Below the pieces are notes generated by a model. It made no database searches. It was not told the DNA's origin and saw only the letters and a program-made list of their open reading frames with translations. This document shows, one piece after another, positions 1-23,980 of a DNA stretch of 27,351 bases (position 1 is the stretch's first letter; each line of letters begins with the position of its first letter). Both the position numbers and the translations under genes were made by a program. This stretch comes from a virus, in the IMG/VR virus record IMGVR_UViG_3300004461_001290, positions 1-27,351 of that record; one strand, written 5' to 3'.

Positions 1-3000
1 TTATCGTATTCTAATGGAATACCAGTTGTTAAATCACTTGGGAATATTTTATATACTCCTCTGTCAATAACCCTTACACTTATAATCTCACCAACTGGTC
101 TGCCTTCATTTAGATGTAATAGTGAGTCTGCTGTTACAACACTAATAACTTCAAACTTAGCAACTCTTTCTGGGAAGCCTTTTCCTGAACCTATTTTTGC
201 TGTGCATGTAGCCGGGGTTGCTGTTGAATTAGGATCTAAATCTATAACTCTAACTTTAGGCGGATTTTCCATTGAATAACCGCTACCTCTATTTGATAAG
301 TTAACTGAAGTTATTTGTCCATCTTGATTTAGATTCACGCCACTAACTGTAGCACCTGAACCTGGAGTCGATCCATCCCCAATATAAATTTTTACATTTG
401 CCGCTGAACTGTAACCTGCACCTTGTATACCTACGCATACTTCTGTAATACCACCATGTGGACTAGGAACTGGAGTTCCGCCTACCGCTCTAAGTCTGTC
501 GCCTACTGAATAGCCATCTCCACCTGATGTTTGTTGTTTGCTTACGTTAAAGAATGTTTTTCCTTCTGTTGAAGAAACACTTCCAAAACTTGCTGAAACA
601 TTTGTTCCGTCTTCTAAGAATCTTGTGTATGTCGAAGTAACACTTCCAATACTGGTATTATTTGCACCTTGCACTACACCTACTGATGGAGGTACAACTA
701 TTGCATCATTTGTTCTTGATTCGCCTGATGCAAAACTTCTAACTACATGGAAGTCTAATACTTCTTTATATGCTCCGCCTCTACATCCATCTTTAAATGT
801 TAGTGGTGCGTTAGTACAACTTGTAATTCTAATTGCTGGTTCTTTGTCTTTTGCACTCTTAGTTGCTTTATATCCATTACCTGCTTGACATAATATAGCA
901 TTCATTGTTGCATCTACGCCACCACCTGGTATAGTAATTCTTGTTCCATTAATGATTAATTCATCACCTGGAGTAAGATTACCTAGATCGCTTGTTGGTA
1001 AACAACATTGTGGTGTAGGATATGACAATGGCATGTAGATTGGTTTTGCTGGTCTTAGTATCCCGTCTATTCTTTTCTTAGGAATAAATTTCAATACTGG
1101 ATTAGTATTAAAATCAGCATCATCTGAATTAAATGCTCTGCCGTCTACTTCTACTGGCGGCGCCATTTGATCTACGCCTGGAGCAAAACCTGTTCCTGGA
1201 ATATAACCTGGTGTACCTGGATACTGAACTAAACTAACAATATTGCCTGCACCTATGCCTGACATACTATCTAACTTGTTAGTATCAAATTTGCTTGTAA
1301 ATCTTTGTGTACTAGGATTCCATAGCAAGTCTAGGTTGCCTTGCATACTAGAATAATAGTCATAACTTCTACCTCTAATAGGTCTTGGTGCTATTTCTAT
1401 TGGTGCTGGTACCGGAGCACTTAGAGGAATAATTATTCCACCTGAGACTCTTTGGAAACTTGTATTAACATACCTATCTGCACCTAATGGTGTATTGTCT
1501 GGAGTTGAAGGTTGCCATGTTTGTTTAACTTTCTTTCTATAAACACTTGGCAAGTAATTAAATCCGCTTCCTGAAGGATTACCAAATCCTCCAAAGTTAT
1601 GCTGGAATGTATACTTGTTCGAAATATGGTACTTGGATATTCCGCCGGCATGTGTTACTTTAGTTTGTGGTGCACCTGCAGGTTGAACAAATGGACTTTG
1701 ATATCCTGTTCCGCCTTTAGTACCAGGGTTACCTGAACCGTAATTTACTTGTCCGTTGTTTGCTGGCAAGTTTGCACCACCCGGTGTTACACCGCTTGTT
1801 GATGCTAAACCTGTGTCAGTATCGCTTGGATATTCTATATAGTATCTGTAAACATTACTGTCCTTATCAACATCTAATCTTACAAACTCTCCCATTGTAG
1901 GATCAAAGTCAAACTCTAATACACCACAATACTTAACTTTACCTGAGCCCCCGGCTTGGAAATCTGTTAAATTGCCAGTTGCAGTTGATCGTCCAGTTGG
2001 GCCACCTGGCTTACCATATGGGTTACCTGCGGCACCTGCCTGATACGAACTTGCATAAGCACTAGAACCTGTTCCGCCTGCTCTTGAACCGTAACTATTA
2101 TATCCGCCTCTGCCGGGCTGTGTTGTTCCAACTGATGCACCAATTGAAGGTGCTAGTAATTCTTGCTTCTCTACATTTGTTGCTTTTCTTATTGTTGAGA
2201 AAGAAGCAGTAGTTGATAGCAATCTACCGCCTGTTGTTGTTTTTGTTGTTGTTTGATAGAAGTCAAATTTGTCTGCCGCACTATACATATCAAATACAAC
2301 TTTAACTCTGCCTTTACATTTAAATCTGTAATGCCATGTATCGTTTACATGCCCTGTATTTGTCGACTGCTGATTCTTTTCTCTCTTTATAAACGAACAT
2401 GGTATTGGAGTTGAAACTATTACGTTTGCATTACCTGGTACTGTTGGAACCGTAGTGTTACCTGCAGGAACTGATACATTTGAATTTGATGTTGGTGGTA
2501 CCGGATCTACATAAACTGGAGGTAAATCTGTTCCACAAGGTGTTTTAGCAGTATGTGTAACCATTGCAGAAGGATTAATAACAACTGCACCTGTATTAGT
2601 ACCTGGTCCTTGTGCTACTGTTGATGTTGCTGGAGGAGGTGTACTTCCTGTACTTCCTGCAGGTCCACTTCCTGTTGGTGTTAGTAAATTAGGTATCTTA
2701 ACAAATGTGTTAATATTTGGCCCTTGTGTTGCAGTGGAGCCCATATTTATTAAGAAGTTTTCAGGTATAAAATGTTTTTGTCCGTTAAGATCTACTTCTC
2801 TTGATCCTCCTGCAAACGTATTTTGAATTCCGTTTAAGAAGTACCCAGGGTGTATTTGGACTTTAGTACCTTTGGAAATACCTGTTTTCCAAGTGCTTGT
2901 TTGATTGTCTACCTTACGAGCACTATTATTACCTGTTGCATCTACTTGTTTTACAAACTGTGCTCTTGTTCTTACCCAATTTTGTTTGAGTTTGTTAGTT

Positions 3001-6000
3001 TTAAAGTTCTGTTGTCTACCAAAGTAATTTCCTATACCGTTTATATATGCTTTACCATATTGTCCAAAGTCTACTAATGCATCTTGGCCTTTAAGAGCAT
3101 CTGCATAGTTTACAATGTTAAGTTCATTAGATCCAATGTATGCTTTAGGGTTAGTAATAATGTTTGGAATAACTGATGTTGGTACTCCTCCAATTACTGG
3201 TATAGTGACTGCAGGACTAAACTTATTAGGCGTTGTATTTTTCCAACCAGTTGTTAATGCTGTTCCAATATTGTAAGGAATTTTTCCAATAACTGGTGGC
3301 ATTACATGACTTTTAATTTTGCCTGCGTCTACATGAATTGTTTTATTAAGATTTCTTCCTATATTTAAACCATTTTGGAATGCGGCTGGGTTAGCCATCA
3401 TGTTATGTTGTACATTAGTTAAGTATGGTAACTTACCAATAACTTGTTTTGGGTTTATATTAAATCCTGGTATTGCTAAATTATTAAGCATTGGTATAGA
3501 TATAGCAAAACTTCCTTCATGTACCATAAAGCCACGTTTAATTTCTTGTTGGAAATTAAAGTCTTGCACCATTGCATCAATACTGTTTGTATTATTAAAC
3601 TTAATAGCATTATTATTTAAGTGAACTACATCATGATCTAATGTTGTAAGAACTGGATTGTTATCTGCATTTTGAGATATTGACTGTGTATCATATGGAA
3701 ACACGCCACTTGTAATAATAGTATTTGCATCTGGAATGCTCTTAACTTTATAAACAACATTATAGTATCTCGGATCTATATTATGAACAGCAATTTTCTT
3801 ACCTGCATATCCGCTAGTGATACCGTGTGCTGTTGATGTAATTTTTATTTCTGGTAATAAAACATTTCCTGTGGTAGTGGATGATGTTGCAATATGCTTT
3901 CTAGTAATAACAAAACTATTATGATTAACTGCTTCTGTTGTGTAGTAACCACTATATTCTTTTGCATTAAGTTTTACAACTTCGTTAGAACCAATATCAA
4001 TATTACTACCACATGTTATTCTTGTTTTACCAAAATAAGTATATGACAAACTTGCCGCTGTATTTTCATTATTTGAAAGTGTAGTATTTGCCGCCATGTC
4101 TTTAACTGCTTGAATACTTGTTCCAGTTTGATTTGTTTCTTTAATTTTAAATGATGTTGCTGTAAGATCACTAATAATAAATGCATTTGCATGTAAAGAA
4201 CAATTTGCACTACCTTCTGCATGTCCAAAGGAAACTGTTTCGCCATCTTCTAATGTAAATGGTATTGTGTTAATTAATATAACGTTGGCACCCGGCACTT
4301 GTGATGTTAATGCTTCTGCTGTTGCAAAGCCACTGGCCGCTGGTGATATACTTGTAATCGGTAATACTGCTGTTGTGTTTGGTCCAATAGCACTAATTGT
4401 TTTCTCTATCATTACTGGCGGATACAAGTTCTTTAATCTAACTTGTTTGTTTTCTATTAATTCTTCGTTTGTCCAAACAACAAATTTATCGCTAAGTTCA
4501 CCGTCTTTAATAATTAGATGGTAGTCTAAGTAACGGCCTGTGTCTGAACCTTGAATAAAGTTAGTATCTATATAATTAAATAAACTATCTCCATTTTTGT
4601 ATAGATATGTTGTAACATCTCCTTGCTCTTGTTCTACAAAACTAACTGTTGTGTTTGCAACTTCTTTAACTTTGTAAACATTGAAGTCTCTGTTTTCTGC
4701 TATACCAACGTGTATAGTTTCATTTATGTCAGGCTGGAAACGTTGTCCTTCGCCAAACAATCCGCTGATGTCTGGAACACTAAATGTTTGATAATCTACT
4801 GATCTTTCGTCTACATAACCTGCATTAGGTATATCTAAATACTTAGAATCAGTTACACCAGTGTAGTCAACTTTTCCTGTTGTTGGCCATAAGTTACTTT
4901 CTCTTACGCCAATTGGCTTTCTTAAGAATCTAGTTTGATCATCAATATCAATCAATATAGTTTCGTCGCCTTTTATGTCTGGAGTAATTTCAAATGTTTG
5001 TATGCTCTTAGTTCTAATTGCAATCTTATCTTGTGTAGTAGTTTTAATACTAACCTTAGCACCTGCTATATCAGTTTTTAATGCACTTGTAAACTCGATA
5101 GTTCCTGACTCTACTAGTAAAATTGTAGCACCGCTTTTAAGCGAGCCACCTTGCAATTCATTAACATTATGTATTGTTAATTGTGTTGTAGTAGATGTGA
5201 ACTGTCTTTTATAATTTGTATTAAGTAATTTATTTCCATTAACAAAAACATCTAAATGTGGGTATGACAAATCAAACAGTTCAATATTTTCTGTTGCTAA
5301 TGCTATAGGTAATGCAATATTTACATCGCCTGTGAAAACTGTATCGGTACTTACTGCACCTGTAGAATCATTAGGGTCAACACGTTGTATATCTGCTGGC
5401 ACTGATGATGCACTAACAACAAAACTTATTTCGTTTCTTGAGCCTGCATCATATGTATAATGTGTTGTAGGTGTTAATGTTGTTGAATCTATTTTAACAA
5501 CTATATCATTTATTGTTGTTGCACCTGTTCCTAATGTTGCTTCGTTATCTACTGTTGCTACACTATGTCTTTGTCTTGTAGTGTAGTCTCCTTTAGTGAT
5601 GTTAATGTTTGCCCAACTGCCGTCGCTATCATTAAGATTAAATTCTTTACCTGTTAGTACAAGTTTGTATCTATTAACAATACTGCCGCCGGATACTTCT
5701 TCACTCTTAACAGTTGTTGCTGTGACATTTGGTAAACTAGCATGAGCAGTAATTGTTGATGCAACTGCTACAATATTCGATGCTGTTGAGAAGTTAAAAC
5801 TAATTGCATTTGCAGGACTTGTAAAGTTATCTGTAATAGTAACAGAACCTAAAAGTCCTGTAACATTTGGACTACTTAACCTGCTACTTTCTGCTGTTGG
5901 CGTTCTAAATGTTAATGAACTATCTGATAAAACCACATTACCTGCCACCACTGTAGCCGTCACAGGCTCCGTGTAACCTTTACCTTGATTTGTTATAGTA

Positions 6001-12053: not shown

Positions 12054-15000
12054 TTATCTGTCCGCTCTTAATACTTGTTGGTTAATTTTATCTACTATTT
12101 CTATATCGTTTACTGAAGCCGTGCTTAAGAATAACTGATATGGTTCTGCTTTGACTTGGAATAAATCTCCAAATGCCCCGGAAGTATTTTTTGGAAGTAT
12201 AACAATACTGCCTATGTTACTGCCTAATCTTTGATGCACAAAACTTGATAATTCTGTAAAGTAAAAAGTCTCACCGTAGTCCCAATTCTTAACATCAAAG
12301 TATGTGTTAAATGCACTAATAATTTTTGACTTAATCTCATTATCACTCATTGTTGTTCCTGGTAGTTTAACTACTTTAAACTTTGCTTGGTTTGTTGCAT
12401 CTGCATCTGTTCCAAATAACAATTTAAATTCTGCACTCTTATAAACAATAGCATCACTGGCATTCTTAAACTCATCTAATTTCTTAAACTCTGTACCTAA
12501 TTCTGCACTTGTTGGTGGTAACGGATATGTTGTTCCCGGAACATTTTTATATTTTTTAATTTCAGTGCTGTATGACTCTGTTAAAACAAGCATTTCGACT
12601 ATGTTACTAATACTAGGATCAATTCTTACATCGTTAGGTGCAACATGTTTCCATTTTAAAACAACTTCGTCATCGCCTTGAAGTGCTGTATTTTGTCCTG
12701 ATGCTCTACCATTTCTCACAAAATAATCTTTTGATTCGTATGCGGCAATAACATTTGTATTTGTACTACTTTTAACTAGTTCATATACTTTTTCATTTGC
12801 TGTATCGTATAATATTATTCCTGAGAATAAGCCTGATACATTATTAAAACTATCTATGTATGTTGCATCTTTAAGTATAATTACTTTTTGCTCTGATATT
12901 TTAACTGGATCTGAATAACTTGTAGGTCCTACAGTATCTGAGCCTATATCAACTTTTATAACTGTTTCTTTTCTTAAATCTACAATAGCACCTGTTAGTG
13001 GCCTATCATAAGTATATCCATCGAAGTCTTTGTAGTATTCAAAGAATATTAAATCACCTGCACTAACAAAATCTTCAAACTGTAATGGTTCATTAGGAAC
13101 CTTATCACCGTCTGAGTCTACTGGCGATACTATAACTTTTCTAGCATCGGTATATCCATCATCATATTTTACAACGTCTGTTATTTCCCAAACTATATCT
13201 TTATCAAGTTTTCTTCTGTCTTGCTTGTATATAACATCAAATTTATCTTGGCTAATAGTACCAGTTCTATCTGTTACAAAAGTATGTCTCATAACTGTTG
13301 GCTTTAAATTACCATCCCAGTTAGTTACAGAAAGTGTTCCTTGGCCTGCGGCAATCTGTGTTGCATTTGCAGTATTTTTTATTCTACCCTGAACTGTGCC
13401 TGATGCTTTGTCTAATGTTGTTCCATTGGATTGTGCAATAAATACTTTTTCAGTTCCGTCTGTCATTTGGTCTCTGTATAAAACATTACCACCTGCATTA
13501 TAAATGTTACTGTTAAACGTTGCAGTAGTAAATGATATGTTTACATTGTTTGGCCAAAAGTTTAAAATGCCTGAACTATTGTTAAGTGTTGCTTTTTGGT
13601 AATTTGAATTTACTGTAAAAATTCCTGATTGCAACTTATCGTATGGTGCTGTTTGAATTGAGACTGCCTGTGCATCGACAAATAAATTACCTGTTGTTGC
13701 ATCGTCATTGCCACTTCTATAAATTCCTAAATTTGTTCTCCACTGTATTTCTACGTCATGGTATTTTGTATCTCTAGTTCTAAGAGGTATTTGAGGATTA
13801 CCATTTAACGGATCATAATACTGTCCTGTTTCGCTACTGATGTAAACATTGCCTTTACCATCTTGATAATCAGGATGCATACTCCAAGTAAATGTTTCTT
13901 TACCGCCTGGCTTAAAGTTTACTTTAGTTAAAATAATTTGATCTTTGCCTGCTGAGTTTGTTGTATCAGTTACTTTAATATTTGTAATATTATAAAACTT
14001 AAGATCCTTTTTACTTTGGATAATATATTTCTGTCCTCTGATTGTAACAGTATAACTGTAGTCTGCGCCAACGCCTGGATTATATACAAATTGTAATAAC
14101 CAACTAGCATCTAATCCTGTTTCTGATGTATCTTGATTGTATTGTGCATTCCAGGTTGCTGTTTTATTTAAATTGTTGTTAGTAACTACATACCAGTTAT
14201 CTAGTTCAGCATCATATCCTAAACCAAATGTTCTTCTGTTTTCTAATTCGTTTACAACTGCTGTTATTTCTGTTGGAGTAAATGTTCTTCTAATTGTTGA
14301 TACAAATTCATCTGCTCTCCAGCCATGTTGTATTCTTGCACTAAGTTTAATAGGACCAACTGATGTTGATACTCCACTTGACAAGCCGCCATTATTGTCT
14401 ATGCTAACAATTCTAACCCACTTGTACTGCGATACATCTGCTGGGTTTACAAACTTAAGATAGTTATTTGGTGCAAACATCTTAAATGCATTGTTATTAG
14501 TTAATAAGATGCTGTCTATTGTAGTTTTATCTTCTAGGAAGTAACCTGTTACACTATCGCTTACTACTGTAGGCAATGTCATCCATCTAATGTTTGCTCC
14601 GGTTAGTTCCCATTTTGTTTCGTCTTCGGTCTTCCATGACTTTCTAAATTTGTCATAACCAAAGTTTATAAGTTCTTGTTCTTTAAGCATTGCAGGTATC
14701 TGAACTGCTGTTGCTTCTAAAGGTGTAATACTATTACTAAGTTGTAATGTCTTACCTAAATTCTTAATTTCTGAGTACAATGCTCCGTCATTAGCAAATG
14801 TATCTACATTTTGATATGTTCCAGTTGGGTCATTAATATCAATGTATCTGCTATGACCTGCATGTGTTTTATTAATTGCTTTTAGTTTTGTAATGTTTGC
14901 ACTTTGACTAAATGGAAATACATTATAGTCTTGGGCACTTACCATTCTATTTTGAGTATAATATGTTTGTGGTGCTCTTTCTTTAATTGCTTCTAAGTCT

Positions 15001-16235
15001 TCTGCTCCTACACTATTGCCTACTGGATCTTTCAATGAGAATGTAATTGATAATGTATGGCTCTCACCTGTTTGTGCAACGTAAGGTATACTAACAGTTT
15101 GTAGCCTTGCATCGTCTGGGTAAATGGTATATGATTCTGCATCACTAACTCTATAATAAAATCTAAAGTTACCAAAAGGTATGTTACCAAAGTTACTGTC
15201 TGGGAATCTTATTCTTATTCCGTCATTGTCTAAGTTTTCAATTGAGTAAAGATTTCTTTGATCAAATGCAAGATTATTATAATATAATGTTTGCCCAACA
15301 GTATTTGGAATCTTTTTCCATTCGTTAATTACAACACCAGTGCTGTCAACTTCTTGCAAGAAACAATCTGTTTCATTAATGCCTGCAACTTCTATATCTA
15401 CTGATCTGTTTTCAACTGGTGTATCAAAGTTAAAATTAGCAACTTTAAAATCACCTTGCTTAAACATTAAGAAAAAGCCTGTTGAATTACTGCTAACACC
15501 TAATCCATCATTTTGATAAATTAAGTTAAAATTGTTTGTAGGATTTGGATGTCTTTCAAAATAAACATCATTATCTAAAAAGTCTGGATTAATTACTTCA
15601 AAGTTTCTATTAACACCAGATGTGCTTAAACCAAAGTCAAATGCTAATGTATTTGATATAGGTGTATTAATTTCGTAAAGTTCTGTATTAATGCCTGCTA
15701 CTTTGCCTGCCTTTGCAGGTTGTGAAAATCTATTGTAGGAAGCCATTGCAGAATTTAATATTGTTATAAACTGCTCGTATGCTTCTGGATTATTTGCATC
15801 ATCCCAGAAAACGTTTACATTATTAATGTCATTGCCTAAACTATCTTGTATTGGCTCAGTTGTTGATACTGCATCAACTTTCATTAATCCACTTGCTGGT
15901 AAGTTACGTTTAGGATTGTATCCTAACATTCTTGCAAGTTTAAATACTGAGTCTCTTCGCTCAGCAGTTTCTAAAAAGTTTTCTCTGGTATTAACATCCA
16001 TTCTGAATGCAAGTGACTGAGAAAGAAATGATAGCATTTCTATAATTGCTATGAATTCTGAACTTTCTATATAATCGTTAAATGTCTCTGGAAAATTTGT
16101 TCTAATGTATTCTATAAGGGACGCTCTGACAGTATCAAAATCGTAGGCTTGAAAATCTACTTCGCTAAATGCCTTGTATGCTATTTTCCAATCTTCTGCG
16201 GCAAATAGATTATTTTGTCTTGATATAAGTGCCAT
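12054..16235 (-). CDS. gp6: Baseplate wedge protein gp6, enlarged
   Basis: Encodes 1393 residues. gp6 forms the inner ring of wedges that holds the contractile-tail baseplate together. Residues 1-110 show the typical start, with FPETFNDYIESSEFIAIIEM near 48-67 and ENFLETAERRDSVFKLARML near 85-104 followed by GYNP. A second conserved block (IKERAPQTYYTQNRMVSAQDYNVFPF) lies at 417-442. The last 100 residues carry the gp6-type ending (NWDYGETFYFTEL, GSIVILP, FGDLFQV, VNDIEIV). T4 gp6 is about 660 residues, so roughly 700 residues appear to be inserted between the second block and the C-terminal part. The start lies 1 base after the gp25 stop and the end has two tandem TAA stops just before the giant gene, so the three are probably cotranscribed. 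Identity is confident; the role of the extra middle region is unknown. Confidence 0.92.
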   Translation of the reverse strand: MALISRQNNLFAAEDWKIAYKAFSEVDFQAYDFDTVRASLIEYIRTNFPETFNDYIESSEFIAIIEMLSFLSQSLAFRMDVNTRENFLETAERRDSVFKLARMLGYNPKRNLPASGLMKVDAVSTTEPIQDSLGNDINNVNVFWDDANNPEAYEQFITILNSAMASYNRFSQPAKAGKVAGINTELYEINTPISNTLAFDFGLSTSGVNRNFEVINPDFLDNDVYFERHPNPTNNFNLIYQNDGLGVSSNSTGFFLMFKQGDFKVANFNFDTPVENRSVDIEVAGINETDCFLQEVDSTGVVINEWKKIPNTVGQTLYYNNLAFDQRNLYSIENLDNDGIRIRFPDSNFGNIPFGNFRFYYRVSDAESYTIYPDDARLQTVSIPYVAQTGESHTLSITFSLKDPVGNSVGAEDLEAIKERAPQTYYTQNRMVSAQDYNVFPFSQSANITKLKAINKTHAGHSRYIDINDPTGTYQNVDTFANDGALYSEIKNLGKTLQLSNSITPLEATAVQIPAMLKEQELINFGYDKFRKSWKTEDETKWELTGANIRWMTLPTVVSDSVTGYFLEDKTTIDSILLTNNNAFKMFAPNNYLKFVNPADVSQYKWVRIVSIDNNGGLSSGVSTSVGPIKLSARIQHGWRADEFVSTIRRTFTPTEITAVVNELENRRTFGLGYDAELDNWYVVTNNNLNKTATWNAQYNQDTSETGLDASWLLQFVYNPGVGADYSYTVTIRGQKYIIQSKKDLKFYNITNIKVTDTTNSAGKDQIILTKVNFKPGGKETFTWSMHPDYQDGKGNVYISSETGQYYDPLNGNPQIPLRTRDTKYHDVEIQWRTNLGIYRSGNDDATTGNLFVDAQAVSIQTAPYDKLQSGIFTVNSNYQKATLNNSSGILNFWPNNVNISFTTATFNSNIYNAGGNVLYRDQMTDGTEKVFIAQSNGTTLDKASGTVQGRIKNTANATQIAAGQGTLSVTNWDGNLKPTVMRHTFVTDRTGTISQDKFDVIYKQDRRKLDKDIVWEITDVVKYDDGYTDARKVIVSPVDSDGDKVPNEPLQFEDFVSAGDLIFFEYYKDFDGYTYDRPLTGAIVDLRKETVIKVDIGSDTVGPTSYSDPVKISEQKVIILKDATYIDSFNNVSGLFSGIILYDTANEKVYELVKSSTNTNVIAAYESKDYFVRNGRASGQNTALQGDDEVVLKWKHVAPNDVRIDPSISNIVEMLVLTESYSTEIKKYKNVPGTTYPLPPTSAELGTEFKKLDEFKNASDAIVYKSAEFKLLFGTDADATNQAKFKVVKLPGTTMSDNEIKSKIISAFNTYFDVKNWDYGETFYFTELSSFVHQRLGSNIGSIVILPKNTSGAFGDLFQVKAEPYQLFLSTASVNDIEIVDKINQQVLRADR

Positions 16236-16236
16236 A

Positions 16237-16605
16237 TTATACTAACTCCTCGTTTATAAATTCTAAGTAAAGTGTGTCTGAAGTTCGTAGCACATTAAAT
16301 GAAATATCAACTTCACACCTTACAGTATGATCTTCTACTAACATTCTAATGTCATCAAGTCTAACTCTGCTATCAGTTTCTATAATTCTTTCTATATCTT
16401 CTCTAACATCACTTTCTGTCATGGCATCCATTGGATTCATAATTATATCATGTATCATACTTCCGAAGTTAGGCCTCATGAATCGCTCACCACGTCTTGT
16501 GTAAAAATGGTTAAGTAAGTCTCTCTTAATTAACTCCTCATCACTCAAGGTAAACGGCGCCTTATTCTTATCGACTGTATTGAATCCTCTAAATATTGTT
16601 GCCAT
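16237..16605 (-). CDS. gp25: Baseplate wedge protein gp25
   Basis: Encodes 122 residues, close to T4 gp25 (132). gp25 is a small wedge protein that links the gp6 ring to the sheath and shares its fold with the GpW/gp25 family of contractile injection systems. The start MATIFRGFNT matches the family start I recall. It is chosen over an in-frame ATG 21 bases upstream (16626), which would add MILINTS and place the late-promoter motif inside the gene. The conserved core ELIKRDLLNHFYTRRGERFM followed by RPNFGS lies at residues 24-49. No clear Shine-Dalgarno sequence precedes either start, and the late-promoter motif ends only 5 bases before the chosen ATG. First gene of the leftward gp25-gp6-giant operon. 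Confidence 0.93.
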   Translation of the reverse strand: MATIFRGFNTVDKNKAPFTLSDEELIKRDLLNHFYTRRGERFMRPNFGSMIHDIIMNPMDAMTESDVREDIERIIETDSRVRLDDIRMLVEDHTVRCEVDISFNVLRTSDTLYLEFINEELV

Positions 16606-16610
16606 ACTAG

Positions 16611-16618
16611 TATTTATC
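16611..16618 (-). promoter_or_regulatory. T4-type late promoter motif for gp25-gp6-giant gene
   Basis: The minus strand reads GATAAATA followed by CTAGT and the gp25 ATG. It differs from the T4 late consensus TATAAATA at one base and the same octamer occurs before the gp48/54-like gene. A late promoter is needed here because the genes immediately upstream are on the opposite strand. The 5-base gap to the ATG would put the transcription start at or near the start codon. Confidence 0.6.
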
Positions 16619-16663
16619 AAAATCATTAAAAGAAGTTTTAATAAAGATGTATGCCAGAATTAC

Positions 16664-16691
16664 TTGCTTTAAACAGCAAAAATAGTAAATA
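16664..16691 (+). promoter_or_regulatory. Possible promoter of the plus-strand lipase cassette
   Basis: TTGCTT (16664-16669), a 16-base spacer and TAAATA (16686-16691) resemble a weak sigma70 promoter 30 bases before the first cassette gene. The same stretch contains AGTAAATA, two mismatches from the GATAAATA late motif used nearby, so it could instead be a degenerate late promoter. It is the only plausible control signal seen in the 16606-16721 divergent gap. Confidence 0.3.
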
Positions 16692-16721: not shown

Positions 16722-16976
16722 ATGTACAACATTCAAAAAGAGTTCGATAAAATTTGGTCAAGAGCCAGAGATGCTAATAAAACAGCAGGTATGGAACGAT
16801 TTCGTAAGATCGAAGAAGCAAAAGGTTCCAAATTTAAAACATATGGCATTTACGATGTAAAGTCACATAAGTATGTAACCTTTGATAGTATTAACTTTGC
16901 TGGAAACTATAGGTATGATAAGAATACAAAGCCTAGAGAACTTGCAGATATGGAGTCGCTTATCAGCAATGCCTAA
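16722..16976 (+). CDS. Small hypothetical protein, first gene of inverted cassette
   Basis: Encodes 84 residues that I do not recognise. The start ATG is preceded by TTGGGGATACA, a usable Shine-Dalgarno sequence (GGGGA) about 5 bases away. The protein is charged and soluble: an N-terminal helix-like half rich in Lys, Arg and Glu (IQKEFDKIWSRARDANKTAG), then a probably beta-rich half with several Tyr residues (YGIYDVKSHKYVTF, GNYRYDK). There is no signal peptide or membrane segment. Its last 8 bases overlap the start of the lipase gene, so the two are probably translated together. Function unknown. Confidence 0.75.
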   Translation: MYNIQKEFDKIWSRARDANKTAGMERFRKIEEAKGSKFKTYGIYDVKSHKYVTFDSINFAGNYRYDKNTKPRELADMESLISNA

Positions 16977-17604
16977 TGTAATTTACATACACGGTGCTAA
17001 TGCTGATTCGGATTCATTTAATTATTACAAACTAAAACTACCAGAGCATGAATCTATTGCTCCAAACTACGATATGTCAGAAGATCCTTTTGATCTTGTG
17101 ATGTCTTTTCAGCGACAAAAAGAAAAAGCATTCGGAAACGAACCTGTAATTATTGTTGGTCATAGTTTTGGAGGAATACTAGGCTCTTGGTATGCAAGTG
17201 TAAATCCAGGCATAGTATCACACTTGATTACTATTGCTACACCATGGGAGGGTACTCCTGTTGCAAGAATATTTGGTTACTTTTGGCGCAATGCTGATGT
17301 TTTTAAAAACAACATGCCAGGTGCTGTTGTTTTAAGTATGTTGCAAGAAAAAACGTTCGAGGGTCCACATACTAATATTATTTGTACTCGAGGAGCAAAT
17401 CCAGTTGCAGGTATAGGTGGTAAAGCAAACGACGGTATGATATCGTGTGATAGTCAGGGTGCTACGCCAGTAGGATTCAAAAACACTCAAACACACCATA
17501 TAGAAGCAGGACACAGCGGTGTTCTGTTAAATAATAATGTAACAGAATTGTTACAAATGATAATGATAGGTGAGACAGATGAAAGATTGGTCGACACTGA
17601 ATGA
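16969..17604 (+). CDS. Alpha/beta-hydrolase, lipase/esterase-like
   Basis: Encodes 211 residues from the ATG at 16969. An upstream in-frame ATG at 16882 would overlap most of the preceding gene and add 29 residues before the first core strand. From the chosen start the protein opens directly on a core strand and oxyanion-type loop, VIYIHGANADS (residues 4-14). The nucleophile elbow is VGHSFGG with Ser66. HLITIATPWEGT (85-96) matches the TPxxGT element of lipases. A candidate acid is Asp155 in AND-GM and a candidate base is His182 in EAGHSGVLL, giving a complete Ser-Asp-His triad in the order expected for bacterial lipases/PGAP1-like hydrolases. No signal peptide or membrane helix is seen. The substrate is unknown: a host lipid, a cell-surface ester or a thioester are all possible. 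It lies between gp5 and gp25 but on the opposite strand to them. Confidence 0.88.
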   Translation: MPNVIYIHGANADSDSFNYYKLKLPEHESIAPNYDMSEDPFDLVMSFQRQKEKAFGNEPVIIVGHSFGGILGSWYASVNPGIVSHLITIATPWEGTPVARIFGYFWRNADVFKNNMPGAVVLSMLQEKTFEGPHTNIICTRGANPVAGIGGKANDGMISCDSQGATPVGFKNTQTHHIEAGHSGVLLNNNVTELLQMIMIGETDERLVDTE

Positions 17605-17776
17605 CACTCTAGAAGAAATACTTCGACGAGAGTTAATAGAACAAAAACAGCAAAATGATTCTTTGATGGCTCGTATAGAACTGTTAGAAGGTCTTGTCAA
17701 AGACGAACAAGAACAAAAGTATAATGCTTATAAAAGAATCGGTGAGTTAATTAAAGAAACTAACCAACCCGGTTAA
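17579..17776 (+). CDS. Small coiled-coil protein of unknown function
   Basis: Encodes 65 residues from ATG 17579, preceded at good spacing by AGGTGAG (17568-17574). A GTG at 17570 is in frame but lies inside that Shine-Dalgarno sequence. Nearly the whole protein is predicted helical by eye, with leucine/isoleucine heptad-like spacing and many Glu, Lys and Gln (LEEILRRELIEQKQQNDSLM, then IELLEGLV). No membrane segment or signal peptide. It overlaps the end of the lipase gene by 26 bases and the end of the convergent gp5 gene by 17 bases. Function unknown; oligomerisation with or regulation of the lipase is only a possibility. Confidence 0.7.
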   Translation: MKDWSTLNDTLEEILRRELIEQKQQNDSLMARIELLEGLVKDEQEQKYNAYKRIGELIKETNQPG

Positions 17777-20228
17777 ATTTAATTTTTTTTGCCATTGCGC
17801 CCCAACTAAGACCTTCATCGAAACTAGGTAGTGTAATACTGTCAGGTGTTTGAAACAACTCACCATACATTTGGCCTCTTTCAATATAATCACGTCTAGT
17901 AACAGGACGCCTACTATATCCTACAGTTCCTTTATTAAAGTCTAACATACTATTTGGGACTTTTGAATATTCAGCCGCCTTAACAAGTTGCAATGCTCTG
18001 CTGTTTTTAAAGTTGTCGACACCTACATGATCTGCAAGTAATGTTAAAGATGCCAATTGATTATCTGACAGTTGGCTCTTACCAACATATTCACTTACAA
18101 TGTTACCTGTTTTTCTTAGATCTGATGCAGTCATAAGATTGTTTGCTACGGCGCCTACTCCACCTCTAGTGTCTATAACGAAACTTCCATCCTTAGCAGT
18201 ATAAATTTTACTTAATCCATCTCTCGAAACATCAATCCCTAATTTACTTAATAAAGGACCTGTGTCAGAGCCTGACTTTTCTGCGGCTTGCAATAATGCT
18301 ATACCTTTAGATAAGTCTGCCATTGATGTATCGTTTGTACCAACTCTTTCTCCTGAGGCGTTTACTGCCACAGTTTTAGTTATTGCTTCTATATCGCTAA
18401 TCTTTCTACCTGAAGCAATAATTTTATAGTTGCCCGGAGTCTTAGTAGGAGCCTGTAAAGGCTTAACACCTGCTGTTATAGCCGATACTGCTGTTGCCAT
18501 AGCACCTGTTTCTTCTAATTTTTTATTAAATGCAGGAGTAAAGTTTGAAGTTACATTTTTTGATGGTTCGTTGTATAACGGATTGTTATTGTCATCGTAC
18601 CCTGTGGATGGTTGGTATCCTGCAGGTGAATTACTATCTGCTGGAGTTTCTCCTTTTGGTCCCAATACACCATTTGAATTAGGTGCCATTGCATCTGCTA
18701 TGCTTTCGTCAGGAACAATACTTGCTTGATTTTCGTTTTCTGGGTCTGCAGGAGTATGCCCTGCAAATGGTTCTGCTGTTATTAAATTAGTAACAATAGA
18801 TTTCATGTTGTATTTTATTCTTTTGCCATCGCCTGGTAATAATGTATCACCTTCACTATCATACTCAGGTTGCTTGTTCATGTAGTCTTCATATTCGGTT
18901 GGCAAAATGTTTTCTAGTAATGAAGCATCATTTACACCTGGCTCTGCTGGACTTGAACCTCCGCTGTTCATAAGCACTTGCTCACCTTTCTCAACAATTT
19001 GGGCACCTTCCATTGTTACATCACCGCCGGCTTTAATACTGTATTTGCCAACGGACTTACTTTTAAATTCGTTTCCTGATAATAATTCTATATCGCCATT
19101 GGCCGCTTCTTGTTTAATACTACCTGATGCATGTGTGGAAACGTCTCCTGCAATAGATCTGTTTATAATACTTGCACCTGCAATATTTTTAATTTCACCT
19201 TCTGCATCTAAATGTATGCTTCCGCCTGATCCGTTGCCTGCCCCTTTATACTCGCTACCTAATGTATCCATGGCCGCTTTAAGATTAATATCTTTGCCTG
19301 CTTCCAAGTTAATATTATAGTCTGCTCTTATATTAAAATTTTGTTTTGCTCTCATATTAATAGAGCCTTCGCCAAATACATGGATGTCCCCTAAGGAGTT
19401 CATCTCAATCCATGCTCTACCACTTTTGTTTATTAAATAAATTACGCCTTCATTATCATCTAATAATACCTGGTTGCCTTCTGCACTTCTGATCCTAATT
19501 TGCCTTGAGTCTAAATTATCATCCATTACAAATTGATGACCGCCAAGTCTAATATCAAAGTCTTTCTCTGAACCTGTTATTGCACTCTTACGAGGACCGG
19601 GTGTCAGTATACCAAATACCTCACTTGGAGATTCTCTTCTTGAGCCACTGCTACCAGCACCTCTAGTTGCATCATTAATTAAACCTTGTTTTACTATTGC
19701 TTCAGAAAGTGTATGCTGTACAGGTCTAAATGTATCATTATGTCTTACGTCTTGAGTTCTTTTATTCTTTTCTACTGTGGGTAACAGTTTTGTAGGATCT
19801 TGATAATTTTTTCCTGCAGGTAATCCTGGTACCATGTTTGCAAACATGTCTGGGTATAAACAACTTATAACAAATGGAAACTTTGTGTTGCCGTCACCAA
19901 ATGCAACTAAAACCATATTACCGATGTCCGGTACTTGTCCCCACCAACCATATGATGTCATAGACTGGTCTGGATTTTCAATTTCTTTTCCTACTGATCT
20001 AGGATTGGTGCTACCTGCAAAAGGACTAGTCCATACAGCATCAAAGTATCCGGACTTGCCGGAATCATCAATAGTAAGTGCCGCGATAAAAACTTGCACT
20101 CTGCCTGTTCTACTAACATCAATATTGTTAATAATTTCTGCAACATAGATTCCGTTAAGGTACGCCTTTTGATTCCTTTCCTTCATGTTAGGATTCTTGT
20201 TGCTAGATTTATGTATATTATATGCCAT
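17760..20228 (-). CDS. gp5: Baseplate central spike/hub protein gp5-like, with lysozyme-like C-terminal half domain
   Basis: Encodes 822 residues. gp5 forms the trimeric spike under the tail tube that punctures the host envelope. Residues about 23-127 are an OB-fold domain of the gp5/VgrG type (YLNGIYVAEI, GRVQVFIA, WWGQVPDIGNMVLVAFGDG). Residues about 228-420 carry repeating short strands (GGHQFVMDD, GNQVLLDD, NINLEAGKDINLKA, GDIELLSG) typical of the gp5/VgrG beta-helix. About 430-600 is Pro/Asn/Ser-rich, low-complexity linker. Residues 720-791 resemble the second half of a GH24 phage lysozyme (LSDNQLASLTLLADHVG, FKNSRAL, then RRDYIERGQMYGELF), but the catalytic Glu region and TIGxGH motif typical of GH24 are not visible. 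T4 gp5 is 575 residues with an active lysozyme between OB and helix; here the lysozyme-like part is at the C-terminus. Start is 2 bases after the hub gene's stop. Confidence 0.88.
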   Translation of the reverse strand: MAYNIHKSSNKNPNMKERNQKAYLNGIYVAEIINNIDVSRTGRVQVFIAALTIDDSGKSGYFDAVWTSPFAGSTNPRSVGKEIENPDQSMTSYGWWGQVPDIGNMVLVAFGDGNTKFPFVISCLYPDMFANMVPGLPAGKNYQDPTKLLPTVEKNKRTQDVRHNDTFRPVQHTLSEAIVKQGLINDATRGAGSSGSRRESPSEVFGILTPGPRKSAITGSEKDFDIRLGGHQFVMDDNLDSRQIRIRSAEGNQVLLDDNEGVIYLINKSGRAWIEMNSLGDIHVFGEGSINMRAKQNFNIRADYNINLEAGKDINLKAAMDTLGSEYKGAGNGSGGSIHLDAEGEIKNIAGASIINRSIAGDVSTHASGSIKQEAANGDIELLSGNEFKSKSVGKYSIKAGGDVTMEGAQIVEKGEQVLMNSGGSSPAEPGVNDASLLENILPTEYEDYMNKQPEYDSEGDTLLPGDGKRIKYNMKSIVTNLITAEPFAGHTPADPENENQASIVPDESIADAMAPNSNGVLGPKGETPADSNSPAGYQPSTGYDDNNNPLYNEPSKNVTSNFTPAFNKKLEETGAMATAVSAITAGVKPLQAPTKTPGNYKIIASGRKISDIEAITKTVAVNASGERVGTNDTSMADLSKGIALLQAAEKSGSDTGPLLSKLGIDVSRDGLSKIYTAKDGSFVIDTRGGVGAVANNLMTASDLRKTGNIVSEYVGKSQLSDNQLASLTLLADHVGVDNFKNSRALQLVKAAEYSKVPNSMLDFNKGTVGYSRRPVTRRDYIERGQMYGELFQTPDSITLPSFDEGLSWGAMAKKIKFNRVG
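17761..17790 (+). terminator. Weak candidate terminator after the plus-strand cassette
   Basis: A short inverted repeat TAACC/GGTTA (17761-17765 and 17771-17775, 5-base loop) is followed 7 bases later by eight T residues (17783-17790). The stem is short and separated from the T run, and all of it lies within the convergent overlap with gp5, so this is tentative. Confidence 0.25.
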
Positions 20229-23940: not shown

Positions 23941-23948
23941 GATAAATA
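23941..23948 (+). promoter_or_regulatory. Late-type motif upstream of gp55
   Basis: GATAAATAC on the plus strand, identical over nine bases to the motif before gp25, lies just upstream of the sigma70-type promoter and 57 bases before the gp55 ATG. It may be a second, late promoter for gp55-gp47-gp46; chance occurrence in AT-rich DNA is possible. Confidence 0.4.
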
Positions 23949-23952
23949 CTAC

Positions 23953-23980
23953 TTGACATATATATAATTCTGTGTATAAT
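23953..23980 (+). promoter_or_regulatory. Sigma70-type promoter for gp55-gp47-gp46
   Basis: TTGACA (23953-23958), a 16-base spacer and TATAAT (23975-23980) are both perfect consensus hexamers. Transcription would start near 23987, giving a leader of about 18 bases that includes GGAG (23996-23999) before the gp55 ATG. Perfect hexamers suggest direct recognition by host RNA polymerase. Confidence 0.8.

Follow-up and report, generated by a model that had tools for sequence, protein, structure and literature searches.

Analysis of a 27,351-base virus record, a 27-kb fragment that is referred to here at its full length as the window, revealed that the baseplate genes gp25 and gp5 enclose an inverted gene pocket, which is an old and fixed cargo site in PA5oct-like jumbo phages. 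The best explanation of the data, which we regard as probable, is that the pocket is fixed in position and swappable in content, and that the alpha/beta hydrolase encoded there would be a cytoplasmic esterase or lipase, produced early or midway through infection in most relatives and not a part of the tail.

The minus strand of the window carries a block of genes for a giant protein whose reading frame runs off the window edge, and for a gp6-like wedge, gp25, gp5, more baseplate proteins and a structural protein, and it is followed on the plus strand by a late sigma factor gene and SbcCD-type genes. The gp25 baseplate wedge gene (16,237 to 16,605, minus strand; Pfam GPW_gp25, E 9.5e-12) is divergent from the pocket, while the gene of the gp5 hub/tail lysozyme (17,760 to 20,228, minus strand; PHROG 13211, ‘baseplate hub subunit and tail lysozyme’, E 8e-36) is convergent with it and has a Pfam Phage_lysozyme domain at residues 699-767. 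The gp6-like long wedge protein (12,054 to 16,235, minus strand), encoded downstream of gp25, aligned to the PA5oct protein EST35_0129, annotated as ‘baseplate wedge’ and encoded at the same position, and was used as the backbone marker in the comparisons. Between gp25 and gp5, the initial annotation had described three overlapping plus-strand genes, and the open reading frames were indeed found at that place and on that strand: orfA (16,722 to 16,976; 84 amino acids), which belongs to a family without assigned function, the lipase/esterase-like alpha/beta serine hydrolase (16,969 to 17,604; 211 amino acids) and orfC (17,579 to 17,776; 65 amino acids). The overlaps are of 8 nt between orfA and the hydrolase, 26 nt between the hydrolase and orfC (35 nt with a GTG start of orfC) and 17 nt between orfC and the 3′ end of the convergent gp5. 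The start of the hydrolase is ATG 16,969; a longer version from TTG 16,882 was rejected, as the start equivalent to 16,969 is the sole one in the majority of its closest relatives. The most likely start of orfC is ATG 17,579, the methionine of which is invariant in 22 relatives, and conservation places that of gp25 most likely at 16,605 and not at 16,626, where the listed open reading frame (16,237 to 16,626) begins with seven codons that overlap a late promoter.

The gp25(-)/gp5(-) junction was compared in contigs anchored on gp25, a second search anchor adopted because the search based on the hydrolase is biased (there, all 45 contigs had the order gp25(-), hydrolase(+), orfC(+), gp5(-)). 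The set comprised the nearest 80 of approximately 550 relatives, and one contig ended before gp5. An inverted pocket was present in all 79 readable contigs and none was empty. Its contents were hydrolase plus orfC in 27 contigs, all three genes in 17, orfA plus orfC in 15, orfA only in 14, orfC only in five and orfA plus hydrolase in one. Thus, orfA was found in 47, the hydrolase in 45 and orfC in 64 of the 79, the hydrolase showing a presence/absence pattern between two conserved genes. The fewest changes required on the gp25+gp6 tree were two for orfA, five for the hydrolase and five for orfC. A profile of divergent hydrolases recovered 78 further loci, all with the hydrolase in the same pocket and 77 with orfA. 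The view that the three genes form a module moving as one unit was therefore not borne out, since each of them comes and goes separately; and as to whether the same three genes are universal and syntenic among relatives, a point raised in the initial annotation, the synteny proved universal and the gene set did not. No hydrolase was found elsewhere in 20 contigs or genomes with a hydrolase-less pocket, which include the complete PA5oct genome and are mostly fragments. Other cargo also occurs: the pocket of L119 (positions 2,743-5,284) encodes on the pocket strand a TonB-dependent receptor plug protein (665 amino acids) and a PNP-type phosphorylase (181 amino acids), and those of L100, L101, L103 and L120 hold hypothetical genes. 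One pocket-bearing relative is a contig of 339,794 bases, a size consistent with jumbo phages. In L051 (2,931-5,387), gp5 lies in two adjacent frames and is intact in the near-identical L050, a sequencing error or frameshift.

The hydrolase region has been exchanged in place between relatives. The contigs L031 and L191 shared 86% identity in the gp25/gp6 backbone and 74% in the hydrolase, while L031 and L015 shared 61% in the backbone and 94% in the hydrolase. At the DNA level, L031 and L015 were approximately 60-70% identical in gp6/gp25, 80-89% in the hydrolase and orfC, and 35-57% in gp5. The hydrolase and backbone trees conflict at other places too, and purely vertical inheritance was rejected because of these conflicts and the inverted identity ranks, although the hydrolase and backbone distances correlate overall (Mantel r 0.65). 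The initial proposal of a transferred module therefore stands if it means that relatives exchange genes at a single site; as a recent insertion it fails, because the same junction is occupied in the 79 contigs, in the 78 distant loci and in PA5oct. Recent acquisition from a bacterium, as an accessory insertion, would agree with the presence/absence pattern among relatives and with the finding that none of 50,697 phage records had a hydrolase homologue at E 0.01. Nevertheless, it was rejected as most improbable, given that the same site is occupied in deeply diverged lineages, that the GC and GC3 contents (0.379 and 0.241) resemble those of the neighbouring gp5 (0.383 and 0.249), and that a pattern-limited search gave no confirmed bacterial relative.

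The relationship to Pseudomonas phage PA5oct (Arenbergviridae, Wroclawvirus) is visible in the synteny of late sigma factor, gp53-like protein, gp5, gp25 and gp6, which is common to the window and PA5oct, and in gp5 itself, whose best matches among the 50,697 phage records came from PA5oct and phages closely related to it (36% identity across half of the protein). A portal-family search in eight longer records gave no match. Between gp5 and gp25, PA5oct has two small inverted genes, EST35_0132 and EST35_0131. The latter, nearer to gp25, matched the orfA family in a profile search (E 2e-13, small database) and is preceded by TTGACG-17-TATACT; in the phage collection, the PA5oct group was the sole group matched by orfA, at the same position and weakly (E 0.1). 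EST35_0132 does not match orfC, and the PA5oct genome has no hydrolase anywhere. The AlphaFold2 model of orfA (pLDDT 82) showed a helix, three strands and two helices, with no fold match in the PDB below E 0.18 and no match of the sequence in Pfam or PHROG. The orfC product is weakly heptad-like, with a hydrophobic fraction of 0.60 at a/d positions, and may possibly be a coiled coil. Morons, the cargo genes in the late operons of lambdoid phages, have their own promoter. The pocket resembles them as extra genes amid conserved late genes that are swapped among relatives and, in most relatives though not evidently in the window, have a sigma70-type promoter of their own. It differs from them in being inverted relative to its neighbours, in occupying a site that is ancient, fixed and filled in every contig sampled, in having no deviant composition in the window, and in that no terminator of its own was found between 16,500 and 17,900 of the window, where the convergent gp5 lies instead.

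The hydrolase matched Pfam Abhydrolase_1 (E 3e-9) and PGAP1 (E 6e-6), both exceeding the cut-off, and lipases in the PDB (E 4e-4 by sequence, E 6e-5 by profile). Its AlphaFold2 model (pLDDT 72), in which the protein begins at a beta strand, matched alpha/beta hydrolases in Foldseek (E 2e-7, probability 1.0, TMq approximately 0.58), with pLDDT values below 50 across residues 143-156, the stretch that includes Asp155, whose modelled geometry is therefore provisional. The protein thus combines a GxSxG elbow, Asp and His in the order of the alpha/beta hydrolase superfamily, and the corresponding fold by Pfam and Foldseek. The catalytic triad proposed initially is complete and its numbering is correct for the 211-residue protein: Ser66, the nucleophile in GHSFGG (codon 17,164 to 17,166, plus strand), Asp155, the acid in the NDG motif (17,431 to 17,433, plus strand), and His182, the base in the (G/S)H motif (17,512 to 17,514, plus strand), did not vary among 25 divergent hydrolases with identities as low as 27%. 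The alignment of these 25 showed 24 invariant columns, including H8-G9, H65-S66-G68, N154-D155-G156 and H182. In comparisons with four close relatives, dN/dS was approximately 0.10-0.13 for the hydrolase, 0.07-0.09 for orfA and 0.19-0.38 for orfC. Neither a signal peptide nor a membrane segment was evident in the hydrolase (maximum KD19 1.3). On the basis of the Pfam and PDB lipase matches, the fold, the invariant triad, the dN/dS values and this lack of a signal or membrane segment, the hydrolase is likely an active serine esterase or lipase, as far as sequence and model can tell. If it is active, acyl lipid is our guess at its substrate, a guess that is tenable and falls short of probable.

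Among known enzymes, the GHSxGG nucleophile elbow of bacterial lipase family I (Chromobacterium, Burkholderia, Pseudomonas; PDB 1cvl, 1tah, 9g8u) aligned with that of the window hydrolase. The alignment spans approximately residues 43-106, mainly the nucleophile region, and the NDG acid motif of the family aligned weakly. The family I lipases have about 285-320 amino acids as against 211, and the hydrolase has no hydrophobic leader corresponding to their N-terminal secretion signal. The marine megaphage Mar_Mega_1 likewise has a phospholipase-type gene (PMC9723777); its product is patatin-like, a family different from that of the window hydrolase, and the part of that report consulted mentions no link to a baseplate pocket. 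A literature search for ‘phage-encoded lipase’ found no paper.

The region between the divergent gp25 and orfA contains a T4-late-type promoter, GATAAATA (16,611 to 16,618, minus strand), located 5 nt before the gp25 ATG and conserved in nearly all relatives. Next to it, an inverted repeat, ATTAAAAGAAGTTTTAAT, occupies positions 16,625 to 16,642, and its half AGTTTTAAT is near-invariant in most relatives; this repeat (ATTAAAACTAGTTTTAAT) may be an operator or an upstream element of the late promoter. On the pocket strand, opposite the late-type promoter of gp25, most relatives have boxes of the type TTGAC(A/T)-16/17-TATAAT. Precisely 6 nt separate the -10 box from the start codon in all 33 representatives in which the hydrolase is the first pocket gene, a number that does not stand for 33 independent observations, the loci being related and the module mobile. 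Because a box ending at this distance would direct the initiation of transcription to the start codon itself, the hydrolase mRNA of these relatives is probably leaderless. No sigma70 promoter was found upstream of orfA in the window, where 12 of 60 shuffles were as good as the best box. The position at which most other lineages have the sigma70-type box is taken in the window by AGTAAATA (16,684 to 16,691, plus strand), which is present in four aligned members of the window lineage and absent from L006, and is a possible promoter candidate of this lineage. In 15 of the 45 distinct regions upstream of the pocket, the late-like motif [GT]ATAAGTA replaces the sigma70-type box. These make up about one in three of the distinct type-II pocket sequences, and early expression is therefore not universal. 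In L198-L212, [GT]ATAAGTA together with AGGAG/TGGAG occupies the place of the sigma70-type box, which suggests that the promoter class changed at the same site in this sublineage.

The meaning of the two promoter classes was calibrated on the 340-kb relative, the only one to serve for this purpose because sigma70 sites are rare, near expectation, in the shorter hydrolase-first contigs. It has 46 sigma70 sites, compared to four in one shuffle. The ten sigma70-promoter genes checked encode a clamp loader, a primase, a helicase, endonucleases and others, with no structural gene, while the ten late-motif genes include two for virion structural proteins and none of replication type, most being without assigned function. 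The same split between RpoD-like/early and ATAAATA/late promoters is seen in CBB, a related jumbo phage (PMC5259590). In the 340-kb contig (G020, L291-L307; also L276-L290), 20 of the 78 copies of the late motif [GT]ATAAATA have an ATG 5-7 nt downstream, compared to 1.7% for anagram controls, which predicts that late mRNAs without a leader may be common in this phage group. Upstream of the late sigma factor gene of the window (23,941-23,979), a late-type GATAAATAC occurs together with the window's only strong sigma70-type promoter; as GTG 23,972 overlaps the -10 box, the true start of this gene is probably further downstream.

The suggestion that the pocket has its own timing is thus supported by the sigma70-type promoter of most relatives and not by the window itself, where no sigma70 box upstream of orfA stands out from shuffled sequence. 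Under the preferred explanation, orfA, the hydrolase, orfC and sometimes other cargo would be gained, lost and exchanged in place between phages; the convergent and divergent orientation would set the pocket apart from the late baseplate transcripts, and the promoter of the host sigma70 type would have it transcribed, in most relatives, probably early or midway. From the early-type promoter of most relatives we infer that the hydrolase is made in the infected cell and not built into the tail, and its expression class, leaderless start and catalytic activity have the same inferred standing. It would act there as a cytoplasmic serine enzyme cleaving acyl esters, such as host lipids, lysolipids or acyl thioesters, and would not be a baseplate part.

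The sigma70-type promoter of the relatives speaks against a use in entry or lysis, as first suggested, and so does the PA5oct annotation, in which gp5, gp25 and gp6 carry the note ‘ESI-MS/MS’ and the two pocket genes have no mass-spectrometry note; a literature search on the timing of these two genes found nothing. A hydrolase that travels with the baseplate, either packaged or attached, and attacks envelope lipid during entry would suit the position within the baseplate block, the lipase-like triad and the late-like promoter variants of some lineages. The opposite strand, the absence of a tail-attachment segment as of any signal or membrane segment, and the many relatives that keep the same baseplate genes without a hydrolase, in addition to the promoter and annotation data, make this very unlikely. 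Quite unlikely as well is a late lysis esterase or lipase that weakens the envelope from inside: the pocket has no holin, spanin or signal segment, many relatives have no hydrolase, and sigma70-type promoters prevail among them, even though the motifs are lipase-like, a late-like box may be in use in the window lineage, which is devoid of a sigma70 box, and the lysozyme domain of gp5 presumably serves entry rather than lysis.

The variable other cargo, the patchy occurrence and in-place swapping that characterise arms-race genes, and the early-type promoter of the relatives would also agree with a counter-defence or anti-signalling hydrolase that destroys a host ester, lactone or other small molecule, the pocket being a site for swapping host-range or defence tools. 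This reading is unlikely, since orfA, the hydrolase and orfC gave only weak matches to known defence genes (E 0.0055 or worse), the hydrolase does not resemble known proteins of defence or anti-defence, and the strong purifying selection on it (dN/dS approximately 0.1) shows no sign of rapid change. A broader and rather doubtful speculation is that PA5oct-like jumbo phages keep a dedicated early cargo slot within the late baseplate operon. Its lipase-like enzyme, translated from a leaderless message as infection begins, would remodel host membrane lipid or remove a host ester signal, and lineages would exchange it as one unit in keeping with their hosts or the defences they face.

The preferred explanation, of a fixed pocket with swappable contents and a cytoplasmic hydrolase, predicts that early expression from a leaderless message is possible for a gene lodged within a late structural block. 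It also makes a conserved family of lipase-like phage proteins available for assay. For uncultured marine jumbo phages, the gp25-gp5 junction would be a predictable site for swappable, host-directed genes, and thus offers a simple handle for cataloguing their cargo.
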